Assembly (NCBI RefSeq): GCF_003573695.1
Contig: NC_039359.1
Span: 155,178,210-155,242,209 of the forward strand
DNA: 64,000 nt
Source: Papaver somniferum
Taxonomy: Eukaryota; Streptophyta; Magnoliopsida; Ranunculales; Papaveraceae
Direction of reading: 5' to 3'
A program made the position numbers and the translations under genes. The number at the start of each line of letters is the position of its first letter. The stretch's first letter is position 1. The notes under the pieces are model-generated. The model did no database searches, was not told the DNA's origin, and saw nothing but the letters and a program-made list of their open reading frames with translations. Shown piece after piece: positions 30,001-48,305 of the stretch.

Positions 30001-31044
30001 ATAAGTGGTTACTCACGGTGTAATTCAGATCATTGTTGTTACTTCAAAAGGAATGGTTCCGACTACATCATATTACTACTGTATGTGGATGATATGTTGG
30101 TTGCCGGAACATCTCTACAAGAAGTTGAGAATTTGAAGAAACAATTAGCAAGTGAGTTTGCTATGAAAGATCTTGGTGAAGCAAAGCATATTCTTGGTAT
30201 GAGGATCATAAGGGACAAAGCTAAGGGTACTCTTGTGCTTAGTCGGGCTGAATATATTGAACGGGTCTTGAAAAGGTTCAATATGAAGAATGTTAAACCA
30301 GTTAGCTCTCCACTTGGAAGTCAAATTCGTCTTTCAAGTATGAAGTGTGCAAAGACAAATGAAGAAAAGGAGTACATGACTAACGTACCATATTTTTCAG
30401 CTATTGGGCGTCTAATGTATGCTATGGTGTGCAAGAGACCGGATATTGCACATGCAGTGGGAGTAGTGAGTAGATATGCAAGCAACCCGGGAAAACAACA
30501 TTGGGAAGCTGTGAAGTGGATTCTCAGGTATTTGAGAGGTAACACAAATGTACCATTGTGTTACGGAAGAGGTGGTTTTATCTTGAGGGGTTATGTGGAT
30601 GTAGACTTCGCAGGTGATGTAGATAAAAGGCGAAGTACGACCGGGTATGTTTATACTATGGGGTCAGCTGCAGTGAGTTGGAACTCACGGTTACAGAAGT
30701 TGGTAACATTGTCTACTACGGAAGCGGAGTGCGTAGCATTGACAGAAGCGAGCAAGGAGATGATTTGGTTACAAGGCTTATTAGCTGACTTGGGCAAGGA
30801 ACATCGAGATAGTGTTATGTTTAGCGACAGTCAAAGCGCTATACATTTAGCCAAGAACTCAACCTATCATGCTAGGACGAAGCATATAGATATTCCTTAT
30901 CATTTCATTCGGGATCTCTTAGAAGAAGGAGAGTTGAAGCTCGAGAAGATTCTTGGTTCGAAGAATCCAGCGAATATGTTTACCAAGGGAGTTACATCAG
31001 ACAAGCTAAAGCTCTGCAAGGCTTTAGTTGGTCTCTCAGAATGA
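27085..31044 (+). pseudogene. Ty1/copia gag-pol with three in-frame stops
   Basis: A single frame runs from the ATG at 27085 to 31044, broken by TAA at 27406, 27931 and 29674. Order: Gag with zinc knuckle CWACKKVGHFKRDC; protease WIIDSGASFHAT; pre-integrase HRRLGHMSEKNM; integrase core with DAWG, LRSDNGGEYD and PHENGVAERM; reverse transcriptase with LDVKTAFLHGDL, YGLKQAPRQWYKK and YVDDMLVAG; RNase H with GYVDVDFAGD, TLSTTEAECVALTEA and KHIDIPYHFIRD. Compared with the copy at 18.8 kb, 24 bp are missing in the integrase between two gagac words. The first TAA is shared with that copy. All three stops can be reached by one substitution from CAA or GAA. Confidence 0.93.
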
Positions 31045-31140
31045 GGATCTGGTAGGGGAGCCGCACTGACATGAAGATGTTTTAGCACCGTAAATCCAAA
31101 GTTGAAGAAAAGGAGAATTGAAGACAATCAATGAGTCTTC

Positions 31141-31151
31141 AAAGTGGGAGA
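31141..31151 (+). promoter_or_regulatory. Polypurine tract of the copia
   Basis: aaagtgggaga lies two bases before the 3' LTR start TGTTAG, as needed for plus-strand priming. Confidence 0.8.
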
Positions 31152-31152
31152 T

Positions 31153-31695
31153 TGTTAGTTATTGAAGACTAATTAATTATTTCCTAAAGTTAGCCGTGGT
31201 TATTTAGGGAAGGGGTTTCCTAAACCGGTTAGAATTCTTGGTGGCCAAGTTTGTAACCTATATAAATAGGTAATTAGGCCTTGTAGAATTAGATTGTGTA
31301 GAAAACGATTAAGAGATCGGTGAGAGATTTCTTGTATAGCTTTTAGGGCTAAAGCTAGGGTTTCGTTATGAGAGCATATTGGTGAGGAACAAGAGACAAG
31401 GTTATCATCTCGGGTAATTGTTGCGGTGTAACCAAGGGTTTGCTGGGATTCACACGACGTTGTAATCGTTTTTCTTCATAGTGGATTTGAGTTGGTGCGG
31501 CTCAAAGTGGACGTAGACAATATATACAAGTTGTATGTATTGGTCGAACCACTATAAATATTGTGTCTTGTGAGTTGATTTATCTTTCTCGTATTTTATA
31601 GTTACTTGTGCTTTATTTACTTATTATTCATCATAATATCTCAAGATACGTTATTCCGCGGTTGTCAGTGATTATTCCCTAAGAAAATCCTGACA
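31153..31695 (+). repeat. 3' LTR of the full-length copia
   Basis: 543 bp, pair of 26480-27021. It carries the TATA word at about 31259. It is followed by the target duplication tttac. Confidence 0.93.
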
Positions 31696-31700
31696 TTTAC

Positions 31701-31740
31701 TTCGCTTGATTACTAACGTGTGCGATATTTTACTCCTACA
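31701..31740 (-). repeat. Tat LTR, outer part (40 bp)
   Basis: Continuation of 26088-26479 after removing the copia and one copy of its target duplication. It ends ...ttttactcctaca, the minus-strand LTR start TGTAGGAG. Confidence 0.6.
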
Positions 31741-32264
31741 AAGTGAGCACTAGCTCTTTCTATAACTATTCAGACTCTTATTTCACTTGATGATGAACCC
31801 TAAGAAACTATGATTAATCCCATATTACATAAGTTTTTGTGTGCAAACTGGTTCACGTGAAAATATTTAAATGGAAGTTGAAGTAGATAAACTTCTAAAG
31901 ACTGATACCCCGAATAGCAGCTTCATTCTTACACCGAATCATCCTCAACGACTGGAACTCGATGGATGTAGAAGTTCATTAAAAACTTTGCATCTTGAAA
32001 TTACTTTTGCCGTGGAAACAAAAAAGGTTGGAACTTAATAGAATCTTGATTTGAATGAGTTTATAGTAACCACAGTATACACTGTTAAAATCTGGCTAGA
32101 TTCGTACTTGAATTATTGGACTTACGGGCAACTGCTCGATTTTTTTTTAGACAGTTTAAGTTTGCGGATTTCATACAAGATTGGGGGTTTTAAACGGTAA
32201 CTTTGATCCATATTTAAACTTTTGGTCGCTCTTTTTTTATTTCAAAATGACAAACATCCTTACG
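31741..32264. other. Flanking DNA upstream of the ACC synthase relic
   Basis: No ORF supported. The first 55 bp (agcactagctctttctataa... ttcagactctta) resemble 17018-17070, the intron in front of the first chlorophyll synthase exon. Confidence 0.4.
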
Positions 32265-32275
32265 ATTATATATAA
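32265..32275 (+). promoter_or_regulatory. TATA box of the ACC synthase-like pseudogene
   Basis: attatatataa, about 100 bp before the ATG at 32375, with an AT-rich leader containing CT-rich and A-rich runs between. Position and sequence fit a plant core promoter. Confidence 0.5.
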
Positions 32276-32391
32276 GGGCTCTTTGACAAGGTGTTTTTCC
32301 TCACCACACCTCAAAGATCAAAGGATAATTACTTGAAAACAAGAACAATCTCACTCAAACTTTTTTTTCCCAATATGGTGGCTGTAGAAGT

Positions 32392-32718
32392 TGTTGGAAT
32401 ATATGGGAAAGTTAGCATACGTACAAGATACGTGCACCAAAGAAGACCAAGTCAATAACAAATCTAGCTAGTAAATCTCTAGATATATTTCACCTAGTCA
32501 ACATAGTTAGATTGTTCTAGGTTTACTGAGTGTTGTTTATCCTATTATTTGTATAAATAGGAATCACCCGTGTACATGTAATCTCATATCAGTAGTACTG
32601 ATGATCAATATAATTCACCCCTAGAGGGTTTTATCAGTGGACGTAGGTCAAGTGACCGAACCACTTTAATCTCTTGTCTCTCTTATTTGTCACTGATCCT
32701 AACTCTTATCATAAATCT
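32392..32718 (+). repeat. Left LTR of the element in ACC synthase
   Basis: 327 bp, about 98% like 34761-35087 by hand comparison. TATA word gtataaatagg at about 32560. Confidence 0.85.
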
Positions 32719-34760
32719 AATATGCTACATAGCAGGAAAAAGATCCAAATATCTTTTTCTGATCAATTGCTTCCACATCTGATTTCTTTTTCCCTTCTCA
32801 TTTCATTAAATTTTTTTTTCCCGAATATTACTTTTTGTTTGGTGATTCTTGTGTTTTGAGTTGGTAGCACAACTAGTTGATCTAGTTTCTAATTTGGATA
32901 CTGTCATTTGGTTTTCCAAATTCTCCTTCTCTTTGTTATGTCTTCAAAGCACTGTAATGGCTACCCTAGCCGACTGATTTTGTTATTCAGTGCCTTGCTC
33001 ATTAGCTCTGTCCTTTGCTAATCAATCTAATTTTATTTTTTTGTTTTGATCTTTTATATCAAAGATTAATCCAATGTTATTTTATTCCAAAAGTAACTTC
33101 AATAATCTCTCTATTATTAAACAATCTCTTTGTTGTTCTCTCCAACTAATTTTGTTGGTCTCCATTAGCTTTGCATATTCCGAATTTAGAGTATCCTATG
33201 GCTGTTTTTCTTTGTTCTCGTGTTGTAAATGGTGGAGTAATCCCATTACAGACGATGTTTGCTAACCTTCTTTTTTGGTGCGTCTCTGATGCATCAACAA
33301 ATATCAAGTGGATTTTAGTACTATAGAAAATCCCGTTTGTGTTTAAAATGGAAAACCATGCATGCTGTTGTTTTGGAGCTTCCGTTTTTCAATCGTTCAA
33401 CACCAACAAAGGGATTTTCTTATTTGGTTCGCTTGATAAAACAGATCAGGTAACAATTATTTTTAATTGTTTTCTTTCTTCTTCGTTGCTATTTTAGTGT
33501 GGATGATCAAATGTACATTCACAAGATTTTTTTTTTCTTTCTTGGTTCATGCTTGCCAAGAAGATCCAATTACATTTTTTGTCAGTAATAATAATGGTTG
33601 AGTCTTGATTCTCAAGGAATACCATTTTGATGACATGAATATCCTTTCTCGCCTTCCAAACATATCTCGTTTTGGATTTTTATTCAAGATTGCAATATTC
33701 AATCTTTGTTATCCGTGAACAATGATGTCAATATTGATTCTTTGATTCACTTACGTTTCAGATGTCAACACTTGCTTGACTTGACTATTTCATCCAATCC
33801 CTCATTCCTCCAAAGGTTGGAGACGTTAAACATGTGGATTTTTGTTCACCGATTCCACATTTTCAATCATTTTCAGATCCAACGATATCATCTTGACTTT
33901 GTCAAGATAATCAATTTCAAATTGGTTCTTTCTCTTCCTGAATTTGGTAACATCTTTCTTTTACGATACCGTCTCATATTATGTTTTTAAAAGAACATAA
34001 ATTTCATACAGTGGATTAAACCCACTTCACTCATCTGAGTTTTTTTTTTTTTGGATGATATCATAAATCTAATATTCATTTTTGTTGGTTCATTTTGATA
34101 ACCTTGCATCAGCAATATCTTTTTCGTCCATGTTTTGGATTTTTCAGATCAATCGTATCATCGTTTCTTTGGGTATTACTCCAAAGTCAATTTTGAGAAC
34201 AATTCCGTTTTGTGTTCTTATCAATTTAATATATGGACGACGAATTCAAGTTTTCCAGCAAGTTTCTTGCTATTCCAGGAAACATCAAGTATGGTCGACT
34301 CCTTTTATATGATCGTGCTTTATTTATCCTAATCAATTTTCTAGTCTATTGGTTTTCATGGACTTGATAAATTGCATTTATCCATTTCCATGGGCATGTT
34401 TGTATCTCAAATCAATCCCATTCAATATATCATTGTTCTATAACTCTTTTAAGTAACTACTATGGAGTTATGTTTATATCATCTGCATTCTCTATATCAC
34501 AACATCTGGACAATGCTGAATGGTGGAGTTAAAGGCTTTTACCAAGATCAAGGTTCGTTAAGTCGAGTTTTCATACACCAGTGGTACTGTGGCACCTCAA
34601 GTAACTACTCTATGATGTCCAAGTAAAGAGCGAGGAATCCACCGTTTGAAGACCGAATAGAGCAAGAGAAGAAGAATATAAAGTTTTTTTTTGCATCCAT
34701 CTTCTTCAACGACAGTTCAAGTTGCCCACTTCGATTCTCTCCATGTCCAACTTGAGGGGG

Positions 34761-35087
34761 TGTTGGAATAAATGGGCAAGTTAGCATACGTACAAGATAC
34801 GTGCACCAAAGAAGACCAAGTCAATAACAAATCTATCTAGTAAATCTCTAGATATATTTCACCTAGTCAACATAGTTAGATTGTTCTAGGTTTACTGAGT
34901 GTTGTTTATCCTATTATTTGTATAAATAGGAATCACCCGTGTACATGTAATCTCATCTCAATAGTACTGATGATCAATACAATTCACCCCTAGAGGGTTT
35001 TATCAGTGGACGTAGGTCAAGTGACCGAACCACTTTAATCTCTTGTCTCTCTTATTTGTCTCTGATCCTAACTCTTATCATAAATCT
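34761..35087 (+). repeat. Right LTR of the element in ACC synthase
   Basis: 327 bp, directly after the purine tract ttgaggggg and directly before the resumed ACC synthase codons (ata gca caa ttg). Confidence 0.85.
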
Positions 35088-36602
35088 ATAGCACAATTGT
35101 CTACTAATGGTTCATCCAAAGTAGTTGAACAATTTGCTAGTGTTGGTTTATCAAAAGATGCAGTTTCTGATAGTCATGCAGAAAATTCGCGCTACTTTGG
35201 TGGTTGGAAAGCTTAGGATGAGAACCCATATGACGATTTGACAAACCCTAATGGTGTCATACAGATGGGTTTAGCAGAAAATCAAATGAGTATTTTTACA
35301 ATGATATATTAACCCCTTTTTGTTTTTGAGTTTTTCACAAAAACATGATCCTTATTTGTCTTGAATTTTTGTAAACAGGTTTCATTTGATTTACTAGAAG
35401 ATTACTTGGAAAAACATTCTGAATCACCTGCTATAGCACTGAAAAATGGGATCTCTAGGTTTAGGGAAAATGCTTTTTTTCAAGATAACCATGGGCTTTT
35501 AACTTTTCGAAAATCAATGGCAAGTTTCATGGAACGCATCAGAGAAGGGAGAGTGAAATTTGATCCCGAACGGGTTGTTCTTACAGCAGGTGCAACCGCA
35601 GCTAATGAATTAATCACATTCGTATTGGCTGATCCTGGTGATGCTTTGCTTATTCCAACTCCATACTATCCAGGGTAAGAAAAGGGCGCAACATGGAATT
35701 TAGAATGATTTGTCATTTCTTTAATTTAAACTAAGATCTGGATGTCTTGTTCGCAGATTTGATAGAGATCTAAGGTGGAGAACCGGTGTGGAAATTGTGC
35801 CTGTTCATTGTGACAACTTCTATGAACATTAAGGTTTCAAACGATTTCCAAGTAGCTCCTAAAGCGTTGGAAGAAGCTTTTAGCAAAGCAACTTCTATGA
35901 ACATTAAGGTTAGAGGATTGCTACTGACGAACCCTTCAAACCCATTAGGCACATCAATGCAGCGATCCGTTCTCGAAGAAATTCTCAACTTCGCTGCAGA
36001 AAAGAACATTCACCTGGTCGTGGATGAAATCTATTCTGGTTCGGTTTTCTCTTCATCCGAATTCATCAGCATTTCAGAAATTCTTGAAGCTCGAAACTAC
36101 AAGAATGCTGAAACAGTTCACATAGTTTATAGTTTATCCAAATTCCAAAGATCTTGGCATACCCGGTTTTAGAATTGGAACAATTTGTTCCTACAACGAT
36201 CATGTCGTGACAACTGCACGAAGAATGTCAAGTTTTAGTTTAATATCATCACATACTCAACATTTATTTGCTTCAATGTTATTAGATACTGAGTTTACAA
36301 AGATATATATACAAACTAATAGAGAAAGATTAAGAAAGGGATATGAAATGATAACCCAGGGGTTGAAGAAAGCTGGGTAGATTAAGCCCAATTTTGGGGG
36401 ATAATCCTACAATAGAAGGAGAAATTGAGTAATGGGAATCATTTGTGCATGAAGTGAAACTTAATATCTCTCCTGGATCTTCTTGTCATTGTTCTGAACC
36501 TGGTTGGTTTAGGGTTTGTTTGCTAATATGAGCGAAAAAACATTGGATGTTGCACTCTATAGAATTTGTGCATTTATGGAGAAAAGAGGAAAACTAGAAT
36601 GA

Positions 36603-37084
36603 TACAAGTATATCTAGCAAATGATATATAATGGGTGGTACTGTAGAATGCGAGCATTGTTTAGCTACCCCTTGTCATTGTTCTCGAGAAGTTCTTTATT
36701 ATCGAAGTTTAGGCTGCTCCTGCATGAGCGTTGAAGGTTGTCTTGTGTGGGTTTTATTTATTCGTCTATCGTTGCTGGAAATGAAAAAAAAAAATTATTA
36801 GGGTTTTACGTACTGGGTTATTTTGATTTTGTTGTACTAGAGTTATCTATATAAAGTGCTCTAAAATAATACAGTATATATATATATATATATATGTAAA
36901 TCTGATATTTATCTAATATTAAGTAATAAGTATTTATTTTGTTATAAAAATTTAAGTATCTTTTCCCAAGTATTCTTTTAAGATCCGATCATTTCCTGAG
37001 TGTTATGCTTCAAAAACAAAAAATTCCTGAGTGTTCATGTGACATCTTAGTTTCATTCTTTTAACTTGAACCTCAATGAAAACC
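36603..37084. other. Non-coding spacer between two ACC synthase relics
   Basis: AT-rich with a TA dinucleotide microsatellite at about 36873-36895. No gene. Confidence 0.5.
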
Positions 37085-37329
37085 TTAGCAAGGGTAGAAG
37101 GATCTTTAACGCGTCAATCAGTTCTGGAGATCAACACGGGAAAAACATGCAAGTTGTCGTGGATGAAATCTATTTAGTTTCGGTTCTTCATACAAAAAAA
37201 CGTACATCAGCATTTCGGAAATTCTTGAAGCTCGAAGTTCTAAATATTCCAAAACGGTTCACATTGTTTTACAGTTTATCGAAAGATCTTGGTACACCCA
37301 GTTATAGAGTTTGAACAATTTATTCGTAT

Positions 37330-38015
37330 GTCCTGAAGCAAACACTTTTGCTCAATTTATGCTGAGAATTGGTAGTATTCCACCGGTGTTAAATAGTCTC
37401 CCAGACACTAGACGCTGGTCCCTAAACAATTTTGGTACTTTCAGCGTGAAATCTCTTTATTCTAAGATGGTTGAAGGCTTTGGTATTGAAGACTTCCCGT
37501 ATGCTTTTGTCTGGAATAAATCAGTTCCCCCGAAGGTCAACTTTCTGGTTTGGTGCATATTACATGAGAAGCTTAATACCATTGATAACTTGCATATCAG
37601 AGGTGTTGATATCTACAATTCCTGCATCCTCTGTGGTGATGACACGGAATCGCATGATCATGTTTTCCTACATTGCAAAGTAGCTCATAAGATATGGTCC
37701 ATGATTTTTCCTACCTCTTGTTGGTCTTGGGTTGTTCCGGGTAATATGAAGATGCTTGCTTGTAATTGGCAACATAAGCACTTTTCAGCCTCTGGCAATT
37801 TTATCTGGAGTCTAATTCCAGCTGCAGTGGTCTATACGATCTGGTTGGAGAGGAACAAACGTATTTTTGAGCCAAACCATACTTTCAAGACTGAAGCTGA
37901 CTTGGGAATGGAAGTGAGAAGCTCAATTTTAGCTTGGGCTGATGCGGCAAATAGAAGTGTTCATATAAACCATGCCAGCACAGTCCTGAATACTTCGGAT
38001 GCCATTTTTATTTGA
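37330..38015 (+). pseudogene. LINE ORF2 C-terminus (RT zinc-binding domain)
   Basis: About 228 codons in frame to TGA at 38013. It contains the zf-RVT domain of plant L1 elements: FSVKSLYSKM, FVWNKSVPPKVNFLVW, CILCGDDTESHDHVFLHC and IWLERNKRIF. Endonuclease and RT domains are missing owing to 5' truncation. No start codon of its own is expected. Confidence 0.88.
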
Positions 38016-38116
38016 TTTCCTGTAATCTTCTCTTTTTTTCTATCTACCGCTGGTAGAATTTGTGTATATTCTTCACTCTTTAATAAATCTCCTCTTCTTA
38101 TCAAAAAAAAAAAAAA
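37330..38116 (+). mobile_element. 5'-truncated L1-type LINE with poly(A) and target duplication
   Basis: The insertion ends in an A-run (38103-38118). It is flanked by the 13-bp word aatttattcgtat at 37317-37329 and 38117-38129, the hallmark of target-primed reverse transcription. Only the 3' part of ORF2 is present. It lies within the second ACC synthase fragment. Confidence 0.92.
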
Positions 38117-38167
38117 AATTTATTCGTATAACAAAATGTTGCGACAACTGCACGCTCAAGTTTTAGT

Positions 38168-38521
38168 TTAATACGGTATCATAAACACAACAAAATGACA
38201 GAGAATTATAAAAATCAAGTCAAGTTTAGTAGAAGCTAATTGATCGGTAATTAAAATCTGTGATACATGCATGATCCGAGAGAGATAAAGTTGTTGCCAA
38301 GGTATACCAAGCTTCTCAGGATGTACGGGTCTTGCAGACCCATCTAAAGTTGCTGTTATTGGAGGCTCGCATTGGGGCATTTTAACAACCCACTTGATCG
38401 GCCAGGTAGTTTGCCGCTTTCTTCTTCTGGACTCCTCCAGGACATTAGGATATCTCTGGTTAGATATCAATTTGTGTATATTGGGATATCCCAGAGTTAT
38501 TGCTTCAACCGTTCCTCGCAA
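38168..38521 (-). CDS. Unrecognised minus-strand ORF, no ATG
   Basis: An open frame of 117 codons (LRGTVEAITLGYPNIHKLIS, RRRKRQTTWPIKWVVKMP, SARPVHPEKLGIPWQQL) with composition more like protein than the AT-rich surroundings. The frame opens after a TGA and starts at a TTG codon, with the first Met well inside, so it could be one exon or a fragment. It lies downstream of the lectin-metalloproteinase gene on the same strand. I do not recognise the family. Confidence 0.3.
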   Translation of the reverse strand: MRGTVEAITLGYPNIHKLISNQRYPNVLEESRRRKRQTTWPIKWVVKMPQCEPPITATLDGSARPVHPEKLGIPWQQLYLSRIMHVSQILITDQLASTKLDLIFIILCHFVVFMIPY

Positions 38522-38889
38522 CTTCTTTAACCTTCAGAATTAAGTCCATCTTCATTTTGTATTTTCAAGAGTAGTCACTTCCCCTAATGTACGTGTCTTG
38601 GTTCTCTTGGTGTAGGCACCAGATAGGTTTGTGGCAGCGGTTGCGAGAAATCCTGTTTGTAATCTTGGTTTGATGGTTACGTCTGATATTCCCGTTTGGT
38701 GTTTTGTGGAAGCATATGGTGGTAGGGGGGAAAGATTATTTCACACAAGCACCTTAACTTGATCATCTGCATTGTTGTATGTATAACAAGTCTCCTATTT
38801 CACACCTCTCAAAGGTACTTTATATAGGTTAATCTTTCGAGTCAGTTTGGCATTGATATTAATGTTCGAGTCTTTTTCTTACAAAATCC

Positions 38890-40107
38890 TTACATGAAAA
38901 TACCAGTAATGATTAGAGATACCAAAACATTTACTAGAGAGACCGAATTATCACCGGAAGCATCCTTGTAGTTCGGGGAATAGTTTGCATTTGGACGGTA
39001 CAGGCTTTGAACCCCTAGGACGTCATCTGCTGATAACTCCCTTTTCTCGGTTCGGCGCGGGATACTCCAAAACATGACTGCATCTTGATCTGAGGAGTGA
39101 TTGAGCCCAAGGAGGTGACCTATTTCATGTGTTGCTACCGATTCCAAATCGAAAGCGTCCTTTCTTCTCTCCGATTTGAAATCTACGGACCAAACTACAT
39201 CTGCATTAAAATGAAGCATACCAATTTCCGGCTCAAAAGCATGGGCCAAAATGCCTTGTGTGAATGGCAGACCATCCCCATGGTCTCCATGATAGAACCC
39301 TATCTTGATATCTGCGCTCTCATATGCTTGTATTTCGGTGAAGTTTAACTCAACCACTGAAGACCATCGGCTGAAGGAAGAATGCAGAGCCATAAGGATG
39401 TCATTTCGGTTTATATAGTCTATCATGTAATTAGGAGACATTCCATAGGTTAAGTTTGTTTTACTCCATGCTGGATTTCCTTCAAAGACCGAGAAATGAC
39501 TAGTGGTTGCATTGAGAGATGTTATTGAAGAATGTAACCTTTTTCCAACAGAGTTCAGATCAACTCCAGATCTCAAATTTTGTCCACCAAGAATGGTGTC
39601 GGATGGATGATCAATACTTTGCCAAACGATTTGTGCTCCTAAACCATAAAACACCAGGTTACCATCATCTTGAAGAACTCCAAATGATACTGGTTCTTTT
39701 ATGTAGGGTATTAAGCGTTTCTCTTTGTTGCCTGGCATTACCATCAGCACCAAATTTCCATCGTTTGTAAAGTGAATTGAAGATGGCTCACGAAGATCGT
39801 CACCATTAGTTGTCCATACTAGGGTTTTGAATAGAGATTTGACTAACCATATACCCACGACATATCGATCTTGACAATATTGTGAAGAACGCGAACATGG
39901 TAATTTGTAGAAACCAAAAGCAACGTTACCTGACGGAGAAAGCCAATAGGGAGAAGAAATATTGAATGAAGTAGAAATTGATGAATTTTTTATGTTGCTG
40001 AAGAAAGTACCATTTAGAACAGGAAAAATGGACGAATCCTTAGTTTTATTGCTGACTGAAGTAACAATTAAGAAGGACATGCAGAGAATTACCGGTAGAA
40101 ATTTCAT
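38890..40107 (-). CDS. G-type lectin / matrix metalloproteinase fusion protein, GPI-like tail
   Basis: Intronless, 405 residues from the ATG at 40107. A cleavable signal peptide is predicted (residues 1-19, hydrophobic). Residues about 45-210 form a bulb-type lectin domain like that of G-type lectin receptor kinases: WLSPSGNVAFGFYKL, LVWTTNGD, LVWQSIDHPSDTIL-type motifs, and QDDGNLVFY at 146-154, an exact QxDxNxVxY mannose-binding motif. Residues about 211-372 form a plant matrixin catalytic domain: ADIKIGFYHGDHGDG, GILAHAF, then zinc site HEIGHLLGLNH (327-337) and a Met-turn AVMFW (Met345). The C-terminus (388-405) is hydrophobic, as in GPI-anchored plant MMPs. Eight N-glycosylation sequons are visible. 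The usual MMP prodomain with its PRCGxPD cysteine switch is absent and the lectin occupies its place. Inferred role: glycan-directed proteolysis at the cell wall or plasma membrane. No lesion is seen. Confidence 0.9.
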   Translation of the reverse strand: MKFLPVILCMSFLIVTSVSNKTKDSSIFPVLNGTFFSNIKNSSISTSFNISSPYWLSPSGNVAFGFYKLPCSRSSQYCQDRYVVGIWLVKSLFKTLVWTTNGDDLREPSSIHFTNDGNLVLMVMPGNKEKRLIPYIKEPVSFGVLQDDGNLVFYGLGAQIVWQSIDHPSDTILGGQNLRSGVDLNSVGKRLHSSITSLNATTSHFSVFEGNPAWSKTNLTYGMSPNYMIDYINRNDILMALHSSFSRWSSVVELNFTEIQAYESADIKIGFYHGDHGDGLPFTQGILAHAFEPEIGMLHFNADVVWSVDFKSERRKDAFDLESVATHEIGHLLGLNHSSDQDAVMFWSIPRRTEKRELSADDVLGVQSLYRPNANYSPNYKDASGDNSVSLVNVLVSLIITGIFM

Positions 40108-40169
40108 GTTTGGATGAAAGAAAAACAAGAGACTCGGAATTTTGTGGTAAGTGCAATGTAGGAGTAGAT

Positions 40170-40860
40170 TGATGTGGTTCTATAGGGAAGTAATCACTTC
40201 TTTGTAAAGGCTCAAAAGTTAGAAAGTAATAGATGTTAGAAACTACCAGGAAGGAGCTAGCCAAGTCTACCTGCCACCTGCATCTTCCTATTCCGGGAAG
40301 CTATACTTTTCTTAAGTTTTCTTTTTCATAGTAAGAGTTCTTAATACCCAGCCTTTTCTCGAGTGGTTATTTGCTTCTCATTGAAGAGAGTTTGTTTCTT
40401 GTCACTGTTTCTAGCCAAACGTGGTAAAATTGGTTTGAAAATGGTGACTTTTCTTTTGATACATTTGATGATTAATACTACCACTGTCTAAGTATTAAAT
40501 TACATTTATATATACCTTTCAACCTAGGCATTTGGTGTGTGAACAGATGAGTACAAAAAAAAAAAAAAAAAAGTTTTGATGTGGAACGAGCAGCTGTAGG
40601 CCTGTAATGAATGATACTGAATTAGGGCGTTAGAAATACGAAGGTCCCTCGAGGATGTGCGAAATAGTTTCATGCTTCATTCTCCAAACGCTCAAAACCT
40701 TAAAAGTCAGCCCCTGATCAAACTGAGTCAGTCTAAAGTGAACCACGTGATAATTACGATTGTACATACAACCTATATAATTGTGGGAGTCGAAAATAGT
40801 TTAATTACAAACATTTAATTAATTTCATATTCACAATCTAAAGAAGTTTTTGTAATTTCA
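40170..40860. repeat. Upstream region of the lectin-protease gene, duplicated (copy A)
   Basis: Starts about 60 bp upstream of the lectin-MMP ATG. Similarity to copy B begins at tgtggttctatagggaagt (also near 41227). It continues through agccaaacgtggtaa, cagctgtag, agtcagcccctgatcaa and cacaatctaaagaagttttt. It contains an A-run at about 40555-40573. Confidence 0.75.
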
Positions 40861-41226
40861 TTGAAGTATTTTTGTTACGTCATCACCACCGTGTCGCTGC
40901 CGCTACAACTTACGATTTTGAATTTAGAAAACCATAGTGGATTTGGGAGATAGGCTGACTAAAGTGAAGGATTTTGCTTATAAGGATATAGGTTTAGTTG
41001 ACTCTACTGACGAAGATTGATGGTATGGTGTGATGACAAATAAGAAAAAAGAAAAATTAGGAAGGAAGTAATTACCAGCAAAGAGAAAAAATCATCAAGT
41101 ATTTTTAATAGCAAAAGGAAAGGGGGTTTAAAAAATGTAAAGGAGACAAGTTCTACGAACTACTGTATAATTATGTGGTTGAGTACGAGGACATACTAGT
41201 ATGGATGTTGAAAGGCTTAGAATTTG
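40861..41226. other. Spacer between the two upstream copies
   Basis: AT-rich; no ORF or recognisable element. Confidence 0.4.
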
Positions 41227-41680
41227 TGGTTCTATAGGGAAGTGATCAGTTCCTTATACATGCTCAAAAGCTAGAAAGTAGCAGTAGAAGTTGGACACTA
41301 TACTAGGAAGGAGCGCTAAAGTCTGCCTGCCAACCTGCATTTACCTATTCAGAACAACCATACTTTTCACAATTCCCATCCTTCTCTTTTTCATAGTATA
41401 AATTCTTAATGCCCTGCCTGTGTAGCAGTTTGCTTTTCTTTTCATTGTTTGTTTCTAGCCAAACTTGGTAACACTTATTTGAAAACGATGACTTTTCCCT
41501 TGATAAGTTTGATGATGACTGCCACCACTGAGTTACATTGCATTTATACTCTTTCCACTGACGCATTTGGTTCGTGTAAAGATGAGTAAAATGAGATAAG
41601 TTTTGGATTATTGGAATGAACAGCTGTAGTTATAAATGAATGATCTTGAATAAGTGTTATCTATATTTGGGTTTGTGAAG

Positions 41681-41987
41681 TGATGTAGTGCAAGATATGG
41701 CAGAATCCTACTTGGAAGGAAGGGATCGACGAAAGAATATCCGTTAAATATTTTCCTATTTGTTATTTTTGTTAGGAAATAAGAGATATCTTGCTAGTAT
41801 TGGCATGATATTATATTTAGTAGGATTTCCTCTTTATTAGCATTAATCATAAAAGATATTGGCATATCCCATAAGGCCTATATATGGCCACGTTTGTAAG
41901 GAAGATCGGCAGATTTTTGAGAAAAGAAAACTCTTCCTTTGAGAAGTTTATTCATTGTGTGATTTCTAGTACTAACATTCTACACCA
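41681..41987 (+). repeat. 5' LTR of the gypsy element
   Basis: TGATGTAGTG...CTACACCA. The likely TATA box is cctatatatggcc at about 41877-41888. The first 67 bp equal the polyprotein's last codons. Confidence 0.93.
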
Positions 41988-42003
41988 TTTGGTATTCAGA
42001 AAC
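41988..42003 (+). promoter_or_regulatory. Primer-binding site of the gypsy element
   Basis: tttggtattcagaaac directly follows the LTR. It resembles the initiator-Met tRNA complement (tggtatcaga) with one inserted T. Confidence 0.5.
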
Positions 42004-42023
42004 TGGGTATCGATCCTTCCAAC

Positions 42024-45000
42024 ATGGTTCGTGGTAGAGGTCAGGGTGGTCCTCGCGAGGCTTTAGTTGAGGAGGTAATGGAGAGAACGAGATACGATGA
42101 ACTATCACGCACGGTTGAGCAGCTCGCCGGTCAGGTAGCAACCCTGTTACAACGACATGAGCGCCGTCATCCTCCTATTGATGAGTCCAATTCATCTGAT
42201 GCCGATGACGATAATGATACTGATAACCCTTTTGCTGGGCGTGAGCGTGAATCTAGGAGTTGGGAATCATCATTCCGCATCGAAATTCCTGAGTTTCATG
42301 GTAGCGGGTTGACACCAGAGGATTGTATCGACTGGTTTTCTACTGTGGAGGAAGTTCTGGAATTTAAGAGGGTTCCTGATGATCGAGTGGTTCCGCTTGT
42401 GGCTACACGCTTTCGGGGTAGGGCTGCTGTTTGGTGGCGTCAACTGAAAGCTTCCCGGATTCAAAAAGGTAACACTCCTATTTCTTCCTGGGCAAGGCTT
42501 GAAAAGTGTATGCGTTCAGCCTTTTTGCCATTTAACTATACCAGAGAACTGTATATTCGTTTACAAAACCTTCGTCAGGGTTTTCGTTCCATTGATGAAT
42601 ATACAAAAGAGTTCTATGATTTGGTCACTCGGTCAGGTATTACAGACACCGATGATCAGCTTGTCTCCCGCTATATAGGTGGTCTACGTGAGACTTTCCA
42701 AGACACACTAAATATGTTTGATTATTTTTCTGTGTCTGAGGTTCACCAACGAGCTCTGCGTTTGGAAAAACAATTATCCCGTAAGTCAATTAGAGCAGCT
42801 GTTGGCCGTCCTACTATTACTCCTTCACAGATTGCTTCCGCTCAACAGAATGTTAGTACGTCTCAAAGGCCTGGTCCTAAATGCTACCGTTGTGGTGATC
42901 CTGGTCACTTGGCAAACGATTGTCGTAAGGCTGGTCGACCCGGCAAAGCTTTACTTGTAGAGCCGACTGCTGCTGATGATATATTTGCTGATGCGGAGGA
43001 GACATCAACTGAGTTCGATGAAGTATTTCTGCCGGGAGACCAAGGTGACTGCTTGATGATTTCTCGACCATCGTTCCTGACGCCGAAGGTTGACACTGAC
43101 GAGTCATGGCTCAGAAAGAACATCTTCCAGACAACGTGCACCATAGAAGGAAAAGTCTGTCGAATGATCATTGACTCAGGCAGCTGTGAGAACGTGGTGT
43201 CTGAAGAGGCTGTGAGAAAACTCAAGTTATCGACAGAGAAACATCCTAGTCCGTACTCTCTTCACTGGCTGAGTAAAGGTTCGGAGGTAACTATTTCCAA
43301 ACGTTGTCTTGTGAAGTTTTCCATTGGTTCTGTATACGAGGATGCTTTGTGGTGTGATGTCGTGGTTATGGATGCTTGTCATCTGCTATTGGGACGACCT
43401 TGGCAATACGACAGGGAGGTAATTCACAATGGTAAACTAAACACATATTCATTCTTGTTCAAATCGACTCGCGTCACGTTAGTACCTGCCAAGGAAACTG
43501 TGCACAAACCACTCTCTAATCTGGCTTCCAATTTTCTGTCTTGGCGTACGTTTGAGACCGAGATGATGGATGAGGGTATTGTGTTCATCCTTTGTGGCCT
43601 TTCTCTTGCATCTGCGTCGACTGTGGCGGTTCCGTCATGTATCCAGGGAGTATTATCGGACTTTGCAGACATTTTTCCCGTTGACCTTCCGGATGGGTTG
43701 CCTCCATCTCGAGCTATTCAGCACCGGATAGACTTAGTACCAGGATCGGTTCTCCCTAATCGAGCTCATTACCGTATGAGCCCAAGAGAACACGAGGAAC
43801 TACAACGTCAGGTAGGGGAGTTGTTAGCCAAGGGTCTCATCAGGGAGAGTCTTAGTCCTTGTGCAGTTCCGGCGTTACTCATTCCTAAGAAGGACGGTTC
43901 ATGGCGCATGTGTGTGGACAGTCGTGCTATTAATAAGATTACGGTGAAGTATCGTTTTCCCATCCCTCGTCTGGATGATATCCTGGACCAGCTTCATGGT
44001 GCTACGATTTTTAGCAAATTGGATTTGCGTAGTGGCTACCATCAGATTCGTATACGGCCTGGAGATGAGTGGAAGACCGCTTTTAAAACTAGGGAAGGAC
44101 TTTATGAATGGTTGGTGATGCCGTTTGGTCTCTCCAATGCTCCGAGTACGTTTATGCGTGTCATGAATGAAGTATTAAAACCATTCTTGGGTAAGTTTGT
44201 GGTCGTTTATTTCGATGACATTTTGGTTTATAGTACTAACTTGGATATGCACTTGCGTCATCTTCGTGAGGTCTTGGTAGTCTTACGCCAGCAAAATTTC
44301 TTTGCCGCTACAAAGAAGTGTGTCTTCGGTACAGATCGCATTTTGTTTCTTGGATACATCATATCCAAGGATGGTATTTCCGTGGATGAATCGAAGGTTG
44401 ATGCTGTGCGTACTTGGCCTTGTCCGCAAACAATCCATGAGGCCAGGAGTTTTCATGGGTTCGCATCCTTTTATAGAAGGTTTATTCCCCACTTTAGCAC
44501 TATTGCAGCAGCAATCACCGATTGCATGAAGAATGGCACGTTTTCTTGGACAGATGCAGCTACAGCAAGCTTCCTCTTACTGAAGGAGAAGCTTTGTTCT
44601 GCCCCTATACTGTCGTTACCAAATTTTTCTTTACCATTTGAGGTTCATACAGACGCCTCTAAGGTTGGTATAGGTGCAGTCCTCAGCCAATCCAGCAAAC
44701 CGATCGCATTTTTTAGTGAGAAATTAAATGGCGCTAAGCGTAATTACAGCACGTATGAACTAGAGTTTTATGCCATCATCCAAACCCTTAAGCACTGGCG
44801 TCATTATTTGATTCATTCTGAATTTGTGTTGTTTACTGACCATGATGCTCTCAAGCACATCGGCAATCAAGACAAGATGAATGCACGACAAGTTAAATGG
44901 GCTAATTATCTACAAGATTTCACATTTGTCCTCAAACACAAGGCTGGAACTCAGAACCGTGTGGCTGATGGTCTCAGTCGTCGACGAAGTCTGCTAACGT

Positions 45001-46349
45001 CACTACGGACGGAGGTCTTGGGTTTGGAATCGTTTGCTGATTTATACAAGACTGACCCCTATTTTGGTTCAATTCTGGACGCTGTGCATGCTGGCAACAG
45101 TACCCAGTTCTCGCTGTTGGATGGTTTTCTCTTCAAGGGAACTCGACTTTGCATTCCTGACTGTAGCTGGCGTTTACGTATCATTCAAGAACTGCATAAC
45201 GAGGGTCACTTTGGTCGTGACAAGACCTTCCAGTTGGTTTCAACATCATACTTTTGGCCGCGCTTGTTTAAAGAGGTACAACGTTTCGTTTCTCGTTGTC
45301 ATATCTGTCAGGTATCTAAAGGTTCTACGACAAATGCTGGTCTTTATATGCCATTACCAATTCCGTCTAAGCCTTGGACTGATATTAGTATGGACTTTGT
45401 TGTGGGTTTGCCTCGCACTCAACATGGGATGGATTCTATTTTTGTCGTCGTTGACAGATTTTCCAAAATGGCGCACTTTATAGCTTGCAAAAAAACTACG
45501 GATGCAGTTCATGTGGCATTTTTGTTTTTTCAACACGTGTATCGTCTTCATGGTCTCCCAGAGTCCATTGTATCGGACCGTGATTCTAAATTTCTTAGTC
45601 ATTTCTGGAGGTCTCTTTGGAAATTATTGCGTACGGAGTTGAAATTCAGCAGTGCTTATCACCCTCAAACGGATGGGCAGACAGAGGTTGTTAACCGATC
45701 TCTTGGGAACATACTTCGCAGCCTGGTGGGTTCTCACACTAAACAATGGGACAAGCATTTGTTTCAAGCAGAATTTGCCTTCAACAGAGCCATTCATAAG
45801 AGCACCGGGTTTAGCCCTTTCCAAGTGGTCTGTGGATTTAATCCGCGTTCACCCCTTGATCTTGCGCCTGTGCCAGATTTGCAACGAGTACATGCCACTG
45901 CTGATGAGTTGGTGCATCACTTACAGCAGATACATGACGAAGCTGCTCAAAACTTGGTGGCGTCCTCTACGAAGTACAAAACGGCTGCCGATAAGCATCG
46001 TCGTCACGTTGAATTTGAGGTAGGTGATTTCGTTTGGGCTGTACTTATTAAGGAACGTTTCTCTACGGGCACATACAACAAATTGGGTCCTCGCAAGATT
46101 GGTCCGTTTGAAATTATTGAGAAGATCAATCCTAATGCTTACCGTTTGCGACTTCCCAGTCATATTCATACTGCTGATGTGTTCAATGTCCGTCATCTCA
46201 TTCCTTACCACGGCGACTTGTCTGATGATGATTTTTCTACCCTGCCTAATTCGGGGGCGAATTTCCTCTTTCCCGGGGAGAATGATGTAGTGCAAGATAT
46301 GGCAGAATCCTACTTGGAAGGAAGGGATCGACGAAAGAATATCCGTTAA
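42024..46349 (+). CDS. Ty3/gypsy Gag-Pol polyprotein, 1441 residues
   Basis: Starts at ATG 42024. Gag capsid domain lies at about 75-260 (FRGRAAVWWRQL, YTRELYIRLQNLRQG, IDEYTKEFYDL). The zinc knuckle CYRCGDPGHLANDC begins at residue 287. Aspartic protease active site DSGSCENVV is at 384. Reverse transcriptase has YFDDILVYS at about 729, RNase H starts near HTDASKVGIGAVLSQ (875). Integrase has an HHCC zinc site (about 1058-1100), core acids in ISMDFVVGLP, SDRDSKF and QTDGQTEVVNRS, and a GPY/F-type module (KIGPFEIIEKINPNAYRLRLP). No stop or frameshift interrupts it. The last 22 codons and the stop lie in the 3' LTR. It should provide all proteins for retrotransposition; the lineage within Ty3/gypsy was not resolved. 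Confidence 0.95.
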   Translation: MVRGRGQGGPREALVEEVMERTRYDELSRTVEQLAGQVATLLQRHERRHPPIDESNSSDADDDNDTDNPFAGRERESRSWESSFRIEIPEFHGSGLTPEDCIDWFSTVEEVLEFKRVPDDRVVPLVATRFRGRAAVWWRQLKASRIQKGNTPISSWARLEKCMRSAFLPFNYTRELYIRLQNLRQGFRSIDEYTKEFYDLVTRSGITDTDDQLVSRYIGGLRETFQDTLNMFDYFSVSEVHQRALRLEKQLSRKSIRAAVGRPTITPSQIASAQQNVSTSQRPGPKCYRCGDPGHLANDCRKAGRPGKALLVEPTAADDIFADAEETSTEFDEVFLPGDQGDCLMISRPSFLTPKVDTDESWLRKNIFQTTCTIEGKVCRMIIDSGSCENVVSEEAVRKLKLSTEKHPSPYSLHWLSKGSEVTISKRCLVKFSIGSVYEDALWCDVVVMDACHLLLGRPWQYDREVIHNGKLNTYSFLFKSTRVTLVPAKETVHKPLSNLASNFLSWRTFETEMMDEGIVFILCGLSLASASTVAVPSCIQGVLSDFADIFPVDLPDGLPPSRAIQHRIDLVPGSVLPNRAHYRMSPREHEELQRQVGELLAKGLIRESLSPCAVPALLIPKKDGSWRMCVDSRAINKITVKYRFPIPRLDDILDQLHGATIFSKLDLRSGYHQIRIRPGDEWKTAFKTREGLYEWLVMPFGLSNAPSTFMRVMNEVLKPFLGKFVVVYFDDILVYSTNLDMHLRHLREVLVVLRQQNFFAATKKCVFGTDRILFLGYIISKDGISVDESKVDAVRTWPCPQTIHEARSFHGFASFYRRFIPHFSTIAAAITDCMKNGTFSWTDAATASFLLLKEKLCSAPILSLPNFSLPFEVHTDASKVGIGAVLSQSSKPIAFFSEKLNGAKRNYSTYELEFYAIIQTLKHWRHYLIHSEFVLFTDHDALKHIGNQDKMNARQVKWANYLQDFTFVLKHKAGTQNRVADGLSRRRSLLTSLRTEVLGLESFADLYKTDPYFGSILDAVHAGNSTQFSLLDGFLFKGTRLCIPDCSWRLRIIQELHNEGHFGRDKTFQLVSTSYFWPRLFKEVQRFVSRCHICQVSKGSTTNAGLYMPLPIPSKPWTDISMDFVVGLPRTQHGMDSIFVVVDRFSKMAHFIACKKTTDAVHVAFLFFQHVYRLHGLPESIVSDRDSKFLSHFWRSLWKLLRTELKFSSAYHPQTDGQTEVVNRSLGNILRSLVGSHTKQWDKHLFQAEFAFNRAIHKSTGFSPFQVVCGFNPRSPLDLAPVPDLQRVHATADELVHHLQQIHDEAAQNLVASSTKYKTAADKHRRHVEFEVGDFVWAVLIKERFSTGTYNKLGPRKIGPFEIIEKINPNAYRLRLPSHIHTADVFNVRHLIPYHGDLSDDDFSTLPNSGANFLFPGENDVVQDMAESYLEGRDRRKNIR
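46275..46282 (+). promoter_or_regulatory. Polypurine tract of the gypsy element
   Basis: ggggagaa immediately before the 3' LTR TGATGTAG. It is translated as part of the polyprotein. Confidence 0.75.
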
Positions 46350-46589
46350 ATATTTTCCTATTTGTTATTTTTGTTAGGAAATAAGAGATATCTTGCTAGT
46401 ATTGGCATGATATTATATTTAGTAGGATTTCCTCTTTATTAGCATTAATCATAAAAGATATTGGCATATCCCATAAGGCCTATATATGGCCACGTTTGTA
46501 AGGAAGATCGGCAGATTTTTGAGAAAAGAAAACTCTTCCTTTGAGAAGTTTATTCATTGTGTGATTTCTAGTACTAACATTCTACACCA
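46283..46589 (+). repeat. 3' LTR of the gypsy element
   Basis: Identical by eye to 41681-41987. It contains the polyprotein stop at 46347-46349 and is followed by target duplication tgaag. Confidence 0.93.
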
Positions 46590-46957
46590 TGAAGGAACGG
46601 TCTATGAGAGGTGGTTGGTTAGGCTTCAACATATAAAAACTAGTGTTGGATGCTTGCATTTTCCTTGTGTTAAAGAAAAAGTAACATGCTAGCTTTCAGC
46701 TAAAATATTAAATGCAAACGAGTCTGAATATGGAGAAGGTCTCGTTCTGATTTTGAATGGGTACTAGTTAGAAATATAAAGGTCCCATGAGGAAGGAGAA
46801 ATGCCCAATTTACATGAGGTCTCATACGAAATAGTTTCATGCATTATTTCTCAAACATTCAAAACCGTAAGAGTCAGCCCCTGATCAAGCTGAAGTGCAT
46901 GCGTCTTGGTTTGAATAACCGAACCATGCACACGTGTTAATTACGATTTTTAGAACA

Positions 46958-47682
46958 TGTTACTACCATTATTCTAGTAGCAACAACCAAACGAACAAGA
47001 TCATTGGATCTTGTTTTAAACCATAAAACAGCAAGTAGAAGATGAAAATAAACAAATAAATAACAATAGTTTCACACAACAATAATGTACGTGGTTCGAC
47101 ATCGGAGTGTCTACATCCACGGGAGGGTAAAAGAAAGTTTTATTATGATTTTTATCTGTTACAAGGGTGATGAACCCCATTAATGATGATGAAGTTCAGT
47201 GAAAGTTTCAATAACGAAGGTATAATGAAGATGTAACGAAGGTATAACGAAGGTAACGAAGGTAAAACGAAGGTAACAAAGGTATTAAGAAGGTAAAACG
47301 AAGATAGAACGAAGATATAATGAAGGTTCCGAAGGTAAAACGAAGGTTACTAAGGTAAAACGAAGGTATAACGAAGGTTCCGAAGGTAAACCGAAGGTAG
47401 AAGATAGAACGAAGGTAGTAATACTACCCAGCTATTATTCCTCTCTTCAGAGGTATTGGGTTTCTTACTCCTCCCTCTTTCTTCCACTCCAAAAGTCCTC
47501 ATCCTCTCTTCCTTATCTTCCCCTCTTTATAAGGAAAAGGGATGTTAGTTATTTACAAAAATGACATCTGCTTAGATTCTAAGATAACTTAGAACTGATT
47601 CGGTGTGCGCCATTGTATGCTTATATCCAGCTGCGACTTCTAATCACCTTCCACATGTACGATGCATGATTTGGTATCTACA
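46958..47682 (-). repeat. 3' LTR of the 6.6-kb element
   Basis: 725 bp. It contains an aacgaaggta minisatellite (about 47210-47412) and, on the minus strand, a TATA word ttataaaga near 47526. Confidence 0.9.
47210..47412. repeat. aacgaaggta minisatellite in the LTR
   Basis: Imperfect 9-13 bp units such as aacgaaggta, aacgaaggtat and aaaacgaaggt repeated about 18 times. The other LTR has a variant array at about 53030-53258, which explains the 22-bp LTR length difference. Confidence 0.85.
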
Positions 47683-48305
47683 ATTTGCCCCTTTTCTTGA
47701 GGGTCGATGATAAGCGATCCTTAAGAAAAATTCCTCTCACCATAATCGTTCATGCTGCGGTTGTTGTTTCCTTCGGCCGCTCCTTGTCGAACGGTTCTGC
47801 ATTCTTATCGTACTGGTACAAGCACTCTTCGTGGGTTGTTCTTTGTTGGTATTTGGTATTGACATTTTCAATACTCGGATTGGTGCTTGTCCGTTAAAAG
47901 AAAAGTCCTCATCCTCTCTTCCTTATCTTCCCCTCTTTATAAGGAAAACAGATGTTAGTTATATACAAAAATGACATCTGCTTAGATGATAAGCTAACTT
48001 AGAACTGATTCGGTGTGCGCCATTGTATGCTTATATCCAGCTGCGACTTCTAATCACCGTCCACATGTACGATGCATGATTTGGTATCTACAAGTTGCCC
48101 TTTTTCTTGAGGGTCGATGATAAGCGATCCTTAAGAAAAATTCCTCTCACCATAATCGTTCATGCTTCGGTTGTTGTTTCCTTCGGCCGCTCCTTGTCGA
48201 ACGGTTCTGCATTCTTATCGTACTGGTACAAGCACTCTTCGTGGCTTGTTCTTTGTTGGTATTTGGTATTGACATTTTCAATACTCGGCTTGGTGCTTGT
48301 CCGTT
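47491..48305. repeat. 410-bp tandem duplication across the 3' LTR edge
   Basis: 47491-47900 and 47901-48305 are near-identical direct copies starting aaaagtcctcatcctctc and ending cttgtccgtt. Each contains the last 192 bp of the LTR plus about 215 bp of interior with the purine tract, so the element carries two LTR/interior junctions on this side. Confidence 0.88.

Follow-up and report, generated by a model that had tools for sequence, protein, structure and literature searches.

The opium poppy (Papaver somniferum) genome encodes a protein in which a bulb-type lectin domain precedes the catalytic domain of a matrix metalloproteinase (MMP), in one intact, intronless reading frame in which no MMP propeptide is found and which recurs, with the same junction, elsewhere in the genome. 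The frame occupies 40107..38890 on the minus strand of a 64,000-nucleotide stretch of DNA, hereafter the window, and comprises 405 codons and a stop; the plus-strand frame across the same interval contains many stops. We suggest, with a probability of roughly 0.6, that the 5' part of a lectin gene was joined to an MMP gene lacking a propeptide, that the joined gene was duplicated, and that its product would be a secreted, tethered protease held on glycans.

From its N-terminus, the 405-residue protein has a hydrophobic leader, then a lectin domain (PF01453) and a linker, and after these a matrixin catalytic domain (PF00413) and a hydrophobic tail. Pfam matches Peptidase_M10 (PF00413) at residues 213-370 (E 1.4e-43, profile positions 1-158 of 159) and B_lectin (PF01453) at residues 95-179 (E 6.7e-10, 39.9 bits against a cut-off of 32.4, profile positions 1-90 of 105), so that the single lectin-matrixin frame of the preliminary description, with its coordinates, is borne out by translation and domain search alike. 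The lectin match stops at the same profile point (90 of 105) in an unfused relative on C6, and, relative to a second copy on contig C788, the window copy is short of about 16 residues where the lectin part ends. At E 0.001, Pfam returned no S-locus glycoprotein/PAN region and no kinase domain for the fusion.

Hydropathy alone gives two peaks, at residues 3-19 and 388-404, which mark a putative signal peptide and a GPI-like tail. Residues 1-19 (40051..40107) are the probable signal peptide. The leader MKFL(P/H)VIL is common to both fusions and to a lectin-only gene on C6, and this agreement supports the upstream start codon. There follow a Ser/Thr/Asn-rich stretch at residues 20-42 (39982..40050), mostly of low confidence in the structural models, and the bulb-type (GNA/G-type) lectin domain at residues 43-179 (39571..39981), with beta strands at 43-163. 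Residues 180-204 (39496..39570) hold the end of the lectin part and a linker with the fusion breakpoint TCAATAACATCTCTCAATGCAACC, which matches the C788 copy. The matrixin domain spans residues 205-372 (38992..39495), with the catalytic zinc site HEIGHLLGLNH at 327-337 (39097..39129) and, in the sequence AVMF beginning at 343, the Met-turn methionine M345 (39073..39075). The hydrophobic tail at residues 388-405 (38893..38946) would serve as a GPI signal or membrane anchor. Cysteines occur only at positions 9, 71 and 78, the latter two with counterparts in a lectin-only relative.

The fusion was sought in the 2.7-Gb assembly of 34283 contigs, where scoring 103 of 399 first-look candidates gave 105 matches. 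Among those scored, both halves were matched together at three places: the window, C788:611027-612280 and contig C28198. The C788 copy encodes an intact protein of 471 residues with the same order of parts and the same junction, and the 5' half of the window frame is conserved in it. The C28198 copy is 98.8% identical to it over 4972 bases, with a run of Ns hiding part of the lectin half; from this identity, it appears to be a haplotig or recent copy of the C788 fusion. A further locus, on C12707, comprises the protease half and is truncated by the contig end.

Database entries for these genes begin at inner methionines, P0002, the entry for the window copy, at residue 122 (M122) and P0003 and P0004 at the lectin motif, and therefore omit most of the lectin half. 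In P0004, which derives from C28198, the public gene model has the fusion spliced to a reading frame further downstream, which replaces the hydrophobic tail; the frame so joined also lies downstream of the C788 copy (compare the reverse strand of L009, 6203-7060) and may be transposon-derived. The matches listed from source 'lgn', which we took to be assemblies of public reads, included no fusion, a weak negative; the same source did yield the unfused MMP L012 (protein P0124).

Comparison of the window and C788 copies (Nei-Gojobori, 2000 codon resamples), a check that the preliminary description had proposed for orthologues, gave Ka 0.134 and Ks 0.356 for the whole protein and ratios well below 1 in both halves. 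The lectin half has Ka/Ks of 0.122/0.331, a ratio of 0.37 (95% interval 0.22-0.62), and the MMP half, the more constrained of the two, has 0.102/0.494, a ratio of 0.21 (0.12-0.34); in neither half did any of the 2000 resamples reach 1. Both halves thus look to be under purifying selection. By the same measure no constraint is seen in the first 30 residues (ratio 0.72) or in the C-terminal tail (ratio 1.69, from 33 codons with 3.5 synonymous differences).

These values bear on the most serious alternative, that the gene is intact but silent or dying, present in the genome and unexpressed or functionless. Neither a transcript nor a protein of the fusion was seen, the lectin half is largely missing from the database entries, the window and C788 copies cease to match in DNA, on the 3' side, where the coding part ends, and the neighbourhood is rich in retrotransposons. 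Against this, two separate copies have kept their frames at a Ks of about 0.36, and in each half Ka/Ks is far lower than 1, whereas unfused relatives on the window copy's chromosome did decay, with stops at C2:64.93 and C2:154.81 Mb. We consider a silent gene unlikely, at about one chance in five.

The window itself contains 12 open reading frames of at least 150 residues, and the 10 that were scanned with Pfam comprise the fusion, seven with transposable-element domains, one with DUF4216 and one without a match. A Ty3/gypsy-type element at 41681-46590, about 1.6 kb upstream of the fusion start codon, has a 1441-residue open polyprotein frame (42024-46349, plus strand) flanked by two direct repeats of 308 bases with 100% identity (41681-41988 and 46283-46590), and its insertion is therefore probably recent. 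Elsewhere in the window are a MULE transposase fragment (1853-2824), Copia gag-pol pieces (27424-31044) and a LINE-like zf-RVT piece (37311-38015), the last with a poly-A run near 38104.

The lectin half can be traced to a particular kind of gene. In a lectin tree of 21 rows, the fusions group with two genes at C6:6.92 and C6:6.91 Mb (support 100/99), which encode a leader, a B_lectin domain, a further C-terminal region and a hydrophobic helix. These lectin-transmembrane genes share part of the upstream region with the fusion; unlike it, they have no protease. No kinase was seen in their translations, nor by Pfam in the C6:6.92 gene, the one scanned. The lectin coding part of the window copy is 84.3% and 81.6% identical in DNA to the C6:6.92 and C6:6.91 genes, respectively, and about 1.5 kb of DNA upstream of the fusion resembles that of the C6 genes. 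Since this upstream DNA is common to fusion and lectin-only genes, the promoter of the lectin gene may have passed to the fusion with it, and is presumed to lie in the block at 40108..41653 (minus strand), which is shared with the C788 fusion and partly with the C6 genes. Two 70% identical copies of upstream sequence stand in tandem before the gene (40173-40625 and 41225-41654), perhaps the remnant of an older duplication of a lectin 5' region.

Mannose-binding lectins of the GNA type have three QxDxNxVxY sites. The fusion falls short of this pattern: QDDGNLVFY at residues 146-154 (39646..39672, minus strand), a candidate mannose-site motif, is its sole exact match, with relaxed D-N-V matches at 114 and 181. 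This motif, HEIGHLLGLNH and the Met-turn were all found by motif scan as the preliminary description had read them.

The protease half falls among plant MMPs. The genome has 89 matches to PF00413, and our MMP tree was built on 50 rows, namely the window, 30 fetched loci and 19 database proteins. Near-duplicates (L023, L028, L029, L044), repeat fetches, the C28198 and C12707 copies and the split locus L015 were left out; the tree program warns of long branches for L030 and P0146. Fourteen rows group at 89/99, comprising poppy loci, three proteins of P. bracteatum, one of P. atlanticum and P0124, whose sequence matches the end of L012 exactly. Within this group the two fusions, L012 with P0124, the broken loci L013 and L014 and the partial P. 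bracteatum protein P0125 form a pro-domain-less clade at 100/100 (88/89 without P0125), in which the two fusions are sisters (93/93). Of the close relatives that share this lack of a propeptide match, L012 (C2:151.64 Mb) encodes 254 residues in an intact frame, with its own hydrophobic leader and no lectin, and L013-L015 are broken and unfused. The window copy lies on the same chromosome; L015 is about 91 kb away from it, L014 0.4 Mb and L012 3.6 Mb.

A profile of the propeptide, derived from 94 MMPs of the database, was positive at 27 of 35 distinct poppy MMP places (at L036 weakly and in pieces) and negative at the other eight: the window, C788, C28198, C12707 and L012-L015. The result for C12707 is uninformative, its locus being cut by the contig end. 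A hidden pro-domain upstream of the fusion, which the preliminary description had named as a possibility that would overturn its reading, is rejected: the profile has no match in window positions 30001-48000 or in the 10-kb loci of C788, C28198 and L012-L015, Pfam gives no PF01471 match in the protein, and a motif scan finds no PRCG in the frame. The profile misses a lone switch peptide, and the absence of a switch in the fusion therefore rests on the missing PRCG.

Intermediate layouts occur among the relatives. L016 keeps a full propeptide, and L050 has a fragment (profile positions 76-91 only). At L048 (C3:165.08 Mb) and L049 (C4098:20.15 Mb) the profile has no match, and their 276-residue proteins consist of a leader, an RCG switch peptide and a catalytic domain, with no helical propeptide; P0127 of P. 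atlanticum and P0128 and P0132 of P. bracteatum share this layout, and all five look like natural minimal pro-enzymes. The free tree suggests that the mini-pro and pro-less groups lost the helical propeptide separately, and a single loss is not rejected (p-AU 0.454). Outside the clade, the 265-residue MMP P0146 of Striga asiatica, on a long branch, also passes from leader to catalytic domain with no propeptide match, perhaps by an independent loss. We also considered the reverse order of events, in which a fusion came first and the lectin was lost later, and rejected it, since tblastn found no lectin remnants beside L012-L016.

The junction indicates which part of the MMP gene was captured. 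The linker of the C788 copy, STSSLNVTNIPTTVRSPELH, resembles the N-terminal region of pro-domain-less MMPs, ISVNVTIPKTPDLNSPELH in the broken L014 and ISVSPTLPTISDLSSPELLH in L012. At the DNA level it scores 41 against each of L013, L014 and L015, a value reached by none of 5000 mononucleotide shuffles and by only seven of 6772 genomic 57-mers, all of them either the L013-L015 sites or the fusion on C28198. Against L012 the match is marginal (139 and 143 of 5000 shuffles), and the case for homology rests on L013-L015, where the linker-like piece lies in a different frame from the catalytic part beside it, a further sign that these loci are broken. The window copy keeps TCAATAACATCTCTCAATGCAACC across the same breakpoint, and the flanking sequence found in C788 is missing from it on both sides. 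Given this homology between the linker and the N-terminal region of L013-L015, propeptide and switch were most likely absent from the MMP partner before the fusion, with the breakpoint most likely just before the mature N-terminus, such that the lectin would have taken the place of a signal peptide. In other words, the earlier proposal that the lectin replaced the inhibitory prodomain does not hold, as the nearest unfused relatives, L012-L015, also have no propeptide.

It might still be that the lectin half acts as a new pro-region, blocking the protease or aiding its folding until the linker is cleaved, with latency achieved by other means. The lectin does occupy the usual position of the propeptide, and the linker, modelled at low confidence, may be cleavable. 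The linker and its surroundings contain no cysteine, however (Cys 9, 71 and 78 being the only ones), and the unfused L012 is intact in frame without any pro-region; we therefore find this idea rather improbable.

Two independent fusions are opposed by the common breakpoint sequence, and an AU test is weakly against grouping the window copy with unfused MMPs to the exclusion of C788 (p 0.0456). The lectin tree runs counter to the single-fusion reading: it does not make the fusions sisters and leaves an open fork among the window copy, C6:6.92 and C788 with C28198. The DNA identities also conflict. The distal upstream block is 96.4% identical between window and C788 (1059/1099), which alone would mean only about 2 million years, whereas the lectin coding part is 83.7% identical; the lectin part of C788 is 93.8% identical to a C6 lectin-only gene. 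Informative sites among four sequences favour window with C788 in the upstream DNA (27 of 38) and C788 with C6 in the lectin coding part (20 of 31, with 10 for window with C788). Gene conversion among the fusion and C6 lectin genes would best explain these conflicting identities, and any date for the fusion duplication is soft and uncertain; the figures to be set beside it are 7.7 for P. rhoeas, 9.7 for P. bracteatum and 16.8 for P. californicum (PMC8521590; PMC9174169).

Structural models support both folds. In a fold search with the whole model, the best 50 matches were MMPs and the like; as one domain fills the whole-model match list, the lectin half was folded and searched alone. Two matches then had E below 0.001, both to 6kyw, with chain 6kyw_B, from the S8-SRK ectodomain complex, at E 8.8e-5. 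Residues 165-202 have pLDDT below 50, consistent with a linker of low model confidence, and the tail is modelled with a helix at 388-404.

A catalytically weak or dead MMP domain, which would make the protein a lectin-bearing decoy or adhesion protein, is a doubtful alternative. Positions that we take to belong to the S-loop and calcium ligands are altered (PFTQG for PFDGxxG, HFNADV for HLDxxE), changes that are partly common to other members of the Papaver clade, and activity could therefore be low. Yet the zinc motif retains its three histidines and its glutamate, and the Met-turn its methionine, the histidines presumed to be structural-zinc ligands are present, and the MMP half is the more constrained half. 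Finally, a misassembly that joined a lectin gene to an MMP gene, which a set of 34283 contigs and the preliminary description's concern about an assembly join might bring to mind, can be dismissed along with chance, because a second intact copy elsewhere shows the same architecture and breakpoint (C788, and likewise C28198) and the window and C788 differ far beyond sequencing error.

The reading that we prefer, a lectin gene's 5' part joined to a pro-less MMP, implies the following course. A kinase-less G-type-lectin transmembrane gene would have given the upstream region, leader and lectin domain, joined in frame to a Papaver MMP without propeptide or switch, close to its mature N-terminus, and the fused gene would then have been duplicated. 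From its sequence, the product is most likely an MMP that is secreted, tethered to the membrane, free of cysteine-switch latency and directed at mannose-type glycans. The hydrophobic tail (GPI or transmembrane) would tether it to the outer face of the plasma membrane, and the lectin domain would hold it on mannose-type glycans, whether of microbes or of glycoproteins in the wall or membrane, with the flexible linker allowing the MMP domain to cleave proteins held at that place. Its activity would depend on transcription, metal ions, glycan binding and inhibitors, and not on propeptide removal.

By analogy, defence or wall remodelling is the likeliest setting, given that both plant MMPs and G-type lectin proteins have been reported there: tomato Sl3-MMP is needed for disease resistance (PMC4465618), and G-type lectin kinases of rice reportedly act in resistance to insects and fungi (PMC5485960). 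Recombinant plant MMPs without the propeptide are reported to be more active than the full-length proteins (PMC4465618).

The fusion shares with plant MMPs of family M10A (the At-MMPs, Sl3-MMP and NtMMP1) the HExGHxxGxxH motif, DLESV, the Met-turn, an intronless gene, a putative leader and a hydrophobic tail (PMC2715019, PMC4465618), and differs from them in having no propeptide or PRCGxxD and in the lectin that precedes the catalytic domain. We would thus describe it as an MMP-derived enzyme that fails one defining feature of MMPs, the propeptide. A plant MMP without a working switch may not be wholly without precedent, since NtMMP1 keeps its propeptide while its authors doubt that the cysteine switch works (PMC2715019).

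Combinations of lectins with peptidases are known in other forms. GNA domains with peptidase M11 occur in other lineages, and a survey names this combination as absent from angiosperms, along with several other peptidase domains not found with lectin domains there (PMC6362431). Such proteins resemble the fusion in pairing a GNA-type lectin with a metallopeptidase, and the Chlamydomonas M11 enzyme degrades the cell wall; they differ in peptidase family and in being non-angiosperm per that survey (PMC6362431), and an independent origin is presumed. Peptidase-lectin proteins are not wholly absent from flowering plants, because peptidase C48 with jacalin domains is mentioned in a study of five angiosperm genomes (PMC5485960). 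For animal genes, Peptidase_M10 and Ricin_B_lectin are listed in separate rows (PMC11788884). Opium poppy itself has another old Papaver gene fusion, STORR (PMC9174169), which joins a P450 to an oxidoreductase, is unrelated in function and serves as a precedent only.

In the literature searched, at the level of titles and the beginnings of abstracts, we found no description of a GNA-type lectin with a matrixin, and the earlier statement that no described family has this order stands within the literature and protein searches made. Three protein database searches found 672, 1202 and 86 proteins (120, 120 and 86 matches listed). Among the matches listed, both domains occur only in P0002-P0004, all on contigs of the poppy genome, and for the same order in other species, which the preliminary description had proposed to look for, this gives poppy alone without establishing a wider absence; the database includes P. 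bracteatum and P. atlanticum proteins, whose gene models may be as incomplete as those of poppy.

Plant MMPs are believed to be synthesized in an inactive pro-enzyme form (PMC4465618), and the fusion departs both from this pattern and from that of the lectin survey, in which several peptidase domains are named as not occurring with lectin domains in angiosperms (PMC6362431). We put at even odds the broader view that the Papaver MMP lineage shed its latency and that one member captured a lectin ectodomain with its upstream region, becoming the first lectin-guided MMP of a flowering plant, a wall or surface protease controlled by location. The intermediates, from the full propeptide of L016 through the mini-pro proteins (L048, L049 and those of P. 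bracteatum and P. atlanticum) to L012 with none, make the loss of latency testable, and the fusion would represent a natural design for glycan-directed proteolysis.
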